This document shows, piece after piece, positions 2,754 to 4,045 of a stretch of DNA of 10,425 nucleotides; position 1 is the stretch's first letter, and each line of letters starts with the position of its first letter. Made by a program: the position numbers and the translations under genes. The DNA comes from a bacterium (GTDB taxonomy: Bacteria; UBP15; UBA6099; DSWB01). The notes beneath the pieces were generated by a model. It ran no database searches. It was given only the letters and a program-made list of their open reading frames with translations, and was not told where the DNA came from. The stretch is taken from NCBI GenBank assembly GCA_020061125.1, contig JAGUYV010000444.1:1-10425 (forward strand), written 5' to 3'.

Positions 2754-3803
2754 CTATTTGAGATATTTCTCGAAAAATTCGAATACGACTTCCCTGGCGG
2801 CCTCGTGGTCCTCGCGCTTGATGGCGTGCCCCTGGCCCTGGAACACCGTACACTTGCTCTCGACGCCGCGCGCCTGCATGGCCGCAGCCACGGCTTCGCA
2901 GTCCTGCTCGAATCCCACCGGGTCCTCGGATCCGACATACATCAGAAGCGGCACCGTGAGCCGTTCCGCGAACAGCGCGGGCGAACGGCGCAGAATCTCG
3001 AACCGGCGTTCAGGCACTTTGGCGACATCGCGATCCTTGATGCCGATCAGCGACTTCAGTTTTTTGATCCCCTCTTTGGTGACCAGAATATACAGCACGG
3101 ACTCCACGCCCGCGGGAGTCTTGATCCACTGCGACACCATGCTCCGGATTTCCGGGGCCGTGAGATTGATCGGGGACGCGAACGAGGCCGCGGCTTTGAC
3201 CCGGCCGGTGCGCAGCAAAGCGCTCAAGGTCAGCCCGCCGCCGTGGCTCACGCCCATCATCACGATGCGATCCGGATCCACCACGGCCAGGCCCGCCGCG
3301 CATTCCATGAGATTCAAAATGTCGTGGACCTCGTCGCCGAGCACATCCATGTCCCCTTCGGCTTTGGGAAACAGCCGCTCGTTGTCCTGCTCGCCGCGGT
3401 AGGTGGCCAGCGCGGCCGCATAGCCCCGCTTCACAAACCGCTCTGCTTCCTCGATGTCGAATCCGGAAATGCCGCTGAAACCGCTGTGGTTGAACACCGC
3501 CAGAGGGAACGGGCCGGTCCCGTGCGGCAGCGCCAGGATGCCGGTCTGCCTGAAGCCGTCCGAATTGTAGGTGATGTGCCTGATCACGCCGCCGTCAATG
3601 TCCTTGAAAACTTCGCCCAGCACGAAATCCACGCATTGCGGCGCGTATTGCGTGCTCGACAAAACATGATCCAGTTCTTCGGGGGTAGCGGGCGCAAACA
3701 GCGCGGAGACATAATCCTGCTGTGCGCGTGCCGGGGCCATGCAGAGGCACAGCGCCAACAGGCACGCAGTCCACGGCGCGAAAAACTTATTCCATAAATT
3801 CAT
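2754..3803 (-). CDS. Exported alpha/beta hydrolase (dienelactone hydrolase/peptidase S9-like fold)
   Basis: This 349-residue protein begins with a clear Sec signal peptide: Lys6, a hydrophobic core at about 12-23, and a signal-peptidase I site ARA after residue 27. It should therefore act in the periplasm or outside the cell. The nucleophile elbow GVSHGG places the catalytic serine at Ser186. The likely acid is Asp294 (in GSEDP) and the likely histidine is His326 (in GQGHAIK), in the order and spacing of an alpha/beta hydrolase triad. A loop NHSGFSG upstream of the elbow probably forms the oxyanion hole. The substrate cannot be read from the sequence; esters or peptides are possible. ATG 3803 is chosen over an upstream in-frame ATG at 3911. 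The signal peptide starts there and GGAG (complement of 3813-3816) lies 9 bases away. The upstream extension would read through the palindromic element described separately. The gene converges with the kinase. Confidence 0.85.
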   Translation of the reverse strand: MNLWNKFFAPWTACLLALCLCMAPARAQQDYVSALFAPATPEELDHVLSSTQYAPQCVDFVLGEVFKDIDGGVIRHITYNSDGFRQTGILALPHGTGPFPLAVFNHSGFSGISGFDIEEAERFVKRGYAAALATYRGEQDNERLFPKAEGDMDVLGDEVHDILNLMECAAGLAVVDPDRIVMMGVSHGGGLTLSALLRTGRVKAAASFASPINLTAPEIRSMVSQWIKTPAGVESVLYILVTKEGIKKLKSLIGIKDRDVAKVPERRFEILRRSPALFAERLTVPLLMYVGSEDPVGFEQDCEAVAAAMQARGVESKCTVFQGQGHAIKREDHEAAREVVFEFFEKYLK

Positions 3804-3834
3804 GAGAAAGCGCTCCAGAGTAACAGGAGATTGA

Positions 3835-3861
3835 ACCCAAATTCGCCGTTGGAATTTGGGT
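3835..3861. repeat. Perfect 10-bp inverted repeat, hairpin with 7-base loop
   Basis: ACCCAAATTC (3835-3844) is exactly complementary to GAATTTGGGT (3852-3861) around a 7-base loop. It lies 32 bases upstream of the hydrolase start, in what should be its 5' leader or promoter. It could be an operator, a leader hairpin, or one terminal hairpin of the composite element formed with the two repeats next to it. Confidence 0.75.
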
Positions 3862-3863
3862 GG

Positions 3864-3981
3864 CAATCGCAAGAAGGCATGAGACGCAAGGCAGCAGGCG
3901 CATTTTTGCATTGAATAGAACTGCGGTTCATGAACAAGAAAATGCGCCGATAACGCAGCGAATCGTGCCTTGTTGCGATTG
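3864..3981. repeat. 118-bp nested palindromic element (REP/MITE-like)
   Basis: Three pairs of perfect arms are nested inside one another: CAATCGCAA (3864-3872) with TTGCGATTG (3973-3981); CAAGGCA (3887-3893) with TGCCTTG (3966-3972); and GGCGCATTTT (3897-3906) with AAAATGCGCC (3939-3948). Near the centre is a 10-bp perfect palindrome, GTTCATGAAC (3926-3935). As single-stranded DNA or RNA the segment would fold into one long, interrupted stem-loop. It encodes no plausible protein. Its size and structure resemble non-autonomous palindromic elements (MITEs, or repeats mobilised by IS200/IS605-type transposases). No second copy is present in this window, so repetitiveness is an inference. I checked the arms for integron attC consensus cores and did not find them. 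Confidence 0.65.
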
Positions 3982-3983
3982 TA

Positions 3984-4019
3984 GGATTCGTCAAATCTTT
4001 CTCTTCTATTGACGAATCC
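3984..4019. repeat. Perfect 11-bp inverted repeat, hairpin with 14-base loop
   Basis: GGATTCGTCAA (3984-3994) is exactly complementary to TTGACGAATCC (4009-4019), with a pyrimidine-rich 14-base loop on the + strand. It begins two bases after the 118-bp palindrome and mirrors the hairpin on that element's other side. It may be an end of the same mobile unit. Alternatively it could add to transcription termination of the transporter gene, which is read toward it on the - strand. Confidence 0.75.
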
Positions 4020-4027
4020 GGGATGAA

Positions 4028-4045
4028 ACCCGGCGCGCGCCGGGT
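4028..4045 (-). terminator. GC-rich palindrome just after the transporter stop, probable terminator
   Basis: The 18 bases form a perfect palindrome that can fold as ACCCGGC-GCGC-GCCGGGT. Its edge lies 3 bases beyond the transporter's stop codon on the - strand. Only three T residues follow in that direction before the run breaks, so the signal is less than ideal. The next hairpin (3984-4019) could back it up. Confidence 0.5.

Follow-up and report, generated by a model that had tools for sequence, protein, structure and literature searches.

The composite palindrome lying between an MFS-type transporter gene and an alpha/beta-hydrolase gene, both on the minus strand, is a MITE, i.e., a short non-autonomous transposon, as seen from its repetition, its fixed ends, the WTNAW duplication flanking it and its empty orthologous sites. 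The window, i.e., the whole stretch of DNA analyzed (10,425 nucleotides), contains a complete copy of this element, and the evidence strongly suggests that it is mobilized in trans by an IS1380-family transposase. Overall, a hairpin-ended MITE moved by an IS1380-type DDE transposase is, with high confidence, the best explanation for this sequence.

The element is 187 bp long in the window and 179 bp in relatives, and has no ORF of its own (Table 1). The original prediction described a 118-bp nested palindrome with a central motif, placed between hairpins with 10-bp and 11-bp arms. The core palindrome was recovered, including the arms CAATCGCAA, AAGGCA and GGCGCATTTT, and it is imperfect, as 70 of its 118 positions are self-complementary; no coding role was seen for it. 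The right hairpin was found exactly as described, while the arms of the left one proved to be 9 bp long, the proposed tenth pair, A3835/T3861, using a base of the target duplication (A3835). Likewise, the proposed extent (3835–4019) had to be shifted, since the terminal GGG at 4020–4022 belongs to the element and A3835 is left out. The terminal inverted repeats (CCCRAATYC and CCCGGATTCGTC) are imperfect and about 9–12 bp long. Folding the palindromic stretch as single-stranded DNA gave −51.7 kcal/mol (z = −7.75), with none of 200 shuffled sequences equally stable, and its minus-strand RNA fold reached z = −6.24. No Rfam match was found in the window.

Table 1. Features of the MITE copy in the window and of its immediate flanks.
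Feature	Position	Strand	Observation
Left flanking target duplication TTGAA (WTNAW)	3831..3835	.	Adjoins the sharp left end; 4/5 bases equal to the right flank
Complete MITE copy, 187 bp	3836..4022	+	Copies with 93-97% identity elsewhere in the genome, flanks unrelated
Left terminal hairpin CCCAAATTC-GCCGTTG-GAATTTGGG	3836..3860	+	Arms 3836-3844 and 3852-3860, 9 bp, perfect; left terminal inverted repeat formed by the outer arm; compensatory changes in relatives
Imperfect core palindrome, central GTTCATGAAC at 3926-3935	3864..3981	+	Core conserved in relatives
Right terminal hairpin GGATTCGTCAA ... TTGACGAATCC	3984..4019	+	Arms 3984-3994 and 4009-4019 paired, 11 bp, perfect
Right terminal inverted repeat CCCGGATTCGTCAATAGAA	4004..4022	-	19 nt identical to IRR of the IS1380-family IS in G002
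Right flanking target duplication ATGAA (WTNAW)	4023..4027	.	Flank comparison

Multiple copies with sharp ends, which had been put forward as a sign of mobility, were indeed found in the genome containing the window (G000), whose assembly amounts to 4.1 Mb in 513 contigs and is 78.8% complete. Among 15 BLAST matches, eight are full-length, i.e., the window copy and seven others, with exact ends and unrelated flanks; three further copies run into contig ends, and the remaining matches are partial or solo ends. The aligned copies share the ends CCC[G/A]AAT... and ...GACGAATCCGGG, beyond which their flanks are unrelated. Among 30 relatives, five genomes, all belonging to the same order and to candidate phylum UBP15, contain diverged copies, and none was found in the sixth genome of that order or in the 24 more distant ones. 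Scanning 84,980 species genomes for the core pattern located it in UBP15-type MAGs (UBA6099, ADurb.Bin236, USMO_maxbin.112, USCA_metabat.19_sub and RA.bin91); UBP15 is named only in the UBA6099 record, membership of the other MAGs resting on the shared order. A single core match in an Undibacterium MAG contig and two in viral contigs (IMG/VR) proved to be coding sequence (e.g., MNKKM..) and were rejected.

Several variants of this architecture were encountered. In G002 and G004, the MITE center is swapped for a REP-like palindrome, GTAGGGGCGGGG...GCCCCTAC (L058:1501-1720, L062, L063 and L072), while copies in G006 (L059, L074 and L079) carry an alternate right half, with GGGTGGCACGCACAAACTTGCTTTGTGCGTG in L074 and L079. 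Three loci with the left end but without the core (L069, L071 and L076) were considered as candidate autonomous elements, and neither a transposase nor a right end was found there. A second multicopy repeat, TGATTCTACCCACTACCAAGTGTGCCATGCGCAAAACTTTTTC..., is present at dozens of places in G003/G004 and other relatives (e.g., G004:C53:5778-5899).

Insertion of the element is accompanied by a target duplication. Among 44 distinct copies with both ends readable, the 5-bp flanks are identical in 29, compared with a mean of 4.2 and a maximum of 11 in 2000 shuffled pairings. The duplicated word is WTNAW, its second position being almost always T and its fourth A. Positions 1, 3 and 5 are variable yet equal on both sides, which makes it a direct duplication and not an extension of the inverted repeats. 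The flanks of the window copy differ by one mismatch. Joined flanks were prepared for 16 blocks, 15 of which were in the query used to search four congeneric genomes, and an intact orthologous empty site, seen as one or more uninterrupted matches of about 320 bp, was obtained in sister species for 7 of the 16 copies tested. The join was aligned base by base for L110, L122, L116, L117 and L108, while the empty sites of L114 and L113 were taken from search coordinates alone. In the clearest aligned cases, a single WTNAW is present at the empty site versus two at the filled one. No orthologous empty site was found at the DNA level for the window locus, because the hydrolase of its nearest relatives has only 43% identity. 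Multiple copies, sharp ends and empty sites in sister species thus bear out the non-autonomous mobile element that had been predicted.

A search with PF13701 (IS1380-type DDE domain) led to G002:C153. The corresponding insertion sequence (IS) of G002 is multicopy and 1535 bp long, has 27-nt terminal inverted repeats and encodes a 449-aa transposase which matches NF033539 (transpos_IS1380; E=4.2e-75, 252.9 bits against a cut-off of 180) as well as PF13701. Its other copies in G002 are interrupted at contig ends; all of them are flanked by WTNAW words which, if paired across contigs, would form TTTAA, TTCAA, TTTAT and TTAAA duplications. IS ends are also present at contig ends in G004. At the right end of the window element, 19 of 19 nt are identical to the IRR of this IS, while no other 19-mer in the window scores above 13; the left end matches the IRL at 14 of 19 nt. 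This IS is the likely source of transposase. In the mechanism proposed, an IS1380-family DDE transposase would recognize the terminal repeats (CCCGGATTCG.. on the right and CCC[G/A]AATTC/CC on the left), excise the MITE and paste it into a staggered WTNAW cut. The shape of the element, with each end doubled into a hairpin and a large palindromic core, may be kept by selection or gene conversion, and frequent internal deletion of the MITE would leave 25-bp solo hairpins.

The possibility that the MITE is moved by a different DDE transposon, whose ends and WTNAW target would by chance be those of the IS1380-family IS, appears quite improbable. It would account for the imperfect match of the left end and for the lack of a cognate transposase in the window's own genome; it is opposed by the full identity of the right end, by the same 5-bp WTNAW target and by the presence of both IS ends and MITEs in G002 and G004. 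No intact transposase with a matching repeat was found in the G000 assembly (78.8% complete, 513 contigs), and multicopy ISs tend to drop out of fragmented, incomplete assemblies. The sole IS1380-family gene of this genome (C240, L150) is broken by a stop and has a different terminal repeat, ACCCGCATTACCCATATCAAAA. Sequence searches found no solved structure related to the IS1380-type transposase, and structure prediction performed without alignment gave a mean pLDDT of 32.9, which is not usable.

Solo 25-bp left hairpins between WTNAW words are present in the relatives G002-G006 (e.g., L126, L132, L135, L144 and L147). At the 13 distinct loci examined, the flanks are identical in five cases and consist of two different WTNAW words in eight, a biased count as the pattern search required WTNAW on both sides. 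At the L141 locus, a solo hairpin is found in G002, a full 179-bp MITE with an identical ATAAA in G004 and an empty site in G003. As hairpin and full MITE share site and duplication, internal deletion of the full MITE is the simpler reading there, and such a three-state locus (empty, full MITE, 25-bp hairpin) illustrates a route of MITE decay to a short terminator-like hairpin. The differing flanks of other solo hairpins could, as a guess, result from deletion between neighboring elements. At L129, the solo hairpin has ATTAT on each side; the corresponding site of G003 and G004 is empty, with a single ATTAT. Solo hairpins with a 5-bp duplication are found at several loci, and two solo hairpins have an empty orthologous counterpart. 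Since every terminus consists of two transposase-end motifs complementary to each other, the left 25-bp hairpin might by itself be a minimal unit movable by an IS1380-type transposase, although we consider this unlikely; if true, it would be among the smallest transposable units known.

At the window locus, the element is inserted upstream of the hydrolase gene, with about 32 bp between it and the start codon (3803, minus strand); on its other side, it is 26 bp past the stop codon of the MFS-type transporter gene (4049, minus strand). A terminator-like GC hairpin (4028-4045) stands directly beside the insertion, on the MFS gene side. A preference for insertion beside terminators was considered and dropped, 7 of 49 copies versus 1 of 40 non-coding control sites being too weak for a claim. 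The hydrolase reading frame is open into the MITE (3803-3911), and an ATG inside it could extend the protein at its N terminus; a start at 3803, which is signal-peptide-like, is the more likely one. The insertion is just upstream of the hydrolase ribosome-binding region, and an effect on this gene is a candidate, unproven consequence.

This location and the very stable fold would also fit a regulatory structure of the chromosome (bidirectional terminator, attenuator or structured 5' leader), conserved for its function and not mobile. Compensatory changes that keep the structure point in the same direction. Indeed, an RNAalifold consensus of 26 aligned copies from three genera retains parts of the core along with the left hairpin, with two-sided pair-keeping changes in 5 of 29 pairs (e.g., A-U to G-C at columns 4/22 and U-A to C-G at columns 8/18), counts which correspond to few independent events, as same-genome copies are related. 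These changes agree with the inverted repeats being maintained, whether through DNA, RNA or gene conversion. Against a regulatory origin, the flanks are unrelated at each copy, 5-bp duplications and empty orthologous sites are present, and hydrolase homologs in G002 and G006 (42-43% identity) have no element copy nearby. Moreover, no sigma-70-like promoter and only weak terminator-like matches were seen within the element. The element is multicopy and mobile, and not the single-copy sequence with termination and promoter functions that the original prediction had named as its refutation. A regulatory structure is thus very improbable and is refuted as the primary explanation, while secondary recruitment of the element for regulation at some loci is possible.

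Least probable of all is the mobilization by a single-strand Y1 (HUH) transposase of the IS200/IS605 or REP type which had originally been suggested; in this scenario, the end hairpins would be the recognition sites. In its favor are the hairpin at each end and the four Y1_Tnp genes of G000, although a MITE copy is found on the contig of just one of these genes, at a distance of more than 20 kb. Against it are the 5-bp direct duplication and the single WTNAW at empty sites, as Y1 transposition makes no such duplication, an end sequence matching a DDE-type IS1380 element and the variable but paired W-N-W positions, which exclude the flanks as part of the element. The 5-bp duplication and the empty sites therefore argue for DDE cut-and-paste and not for IS200/IS605 or REP transposition.

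Collectively, these data provide the uncultured candidate phylum UBP15 with a documented, recently active mobile element and a probable source of its transposase. IS200/IS605 elements generate no target duplication; the same holds for REP/BIME elements and IS200/IS605 derivatives, which depend on Y1 transposases. Similarly to the latter, the window element is palindromic, intergenic and multicopy, but in contrast to them it has a 5-bp duplication. Within the IS1380 family, the terminal repeat of ISEcp1 begins with CC. IS1247, another member, has IR 16/13 and DR 5 (PMC3281130). The window element shares the CC-starting terminal repeat and the 5-bp duplication of these ISs; unlike them, it has no transposase, and it is about one-eighth the length of the G002 IS. 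Eukaryotic piggyBac transposons have a 4-bp TTAA target duplication and CCCT-type ends, which the WTNAW duplication and CCCG ends of the window element resemble. The bacterial WTNAW duplication is close to the piggyBac TTAA; IS1380 serves as an outgroup of piggyBac transposons (PMC10813416), and the relation is a lead only.

Prokaryotic MITEs are shorter than 500 bp and intergenic, with terminal inverted repeats, short direct repeats at the target, a stable stem-loop and many partial copies (PMC10969869). Like Chunjie of Geobacter or QMITE1/2 of Coxiella, the window element shares this size, these repeats, the fold, the intergenic site and the partial copies. It differs from those MITEs in that each terminus is a short hairpin beside a separate core palindrome, and in its probable partner, an IS1380-family IS. 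IS1380 is not mentioned in a 2024 review of prokaryotic MITEs (PMC10969869), and no earlier case was found in a limited literature search; MITE partners appear to be extended to this family by the window element. The window element is a well-documented further example of an already known element type, the MITE.
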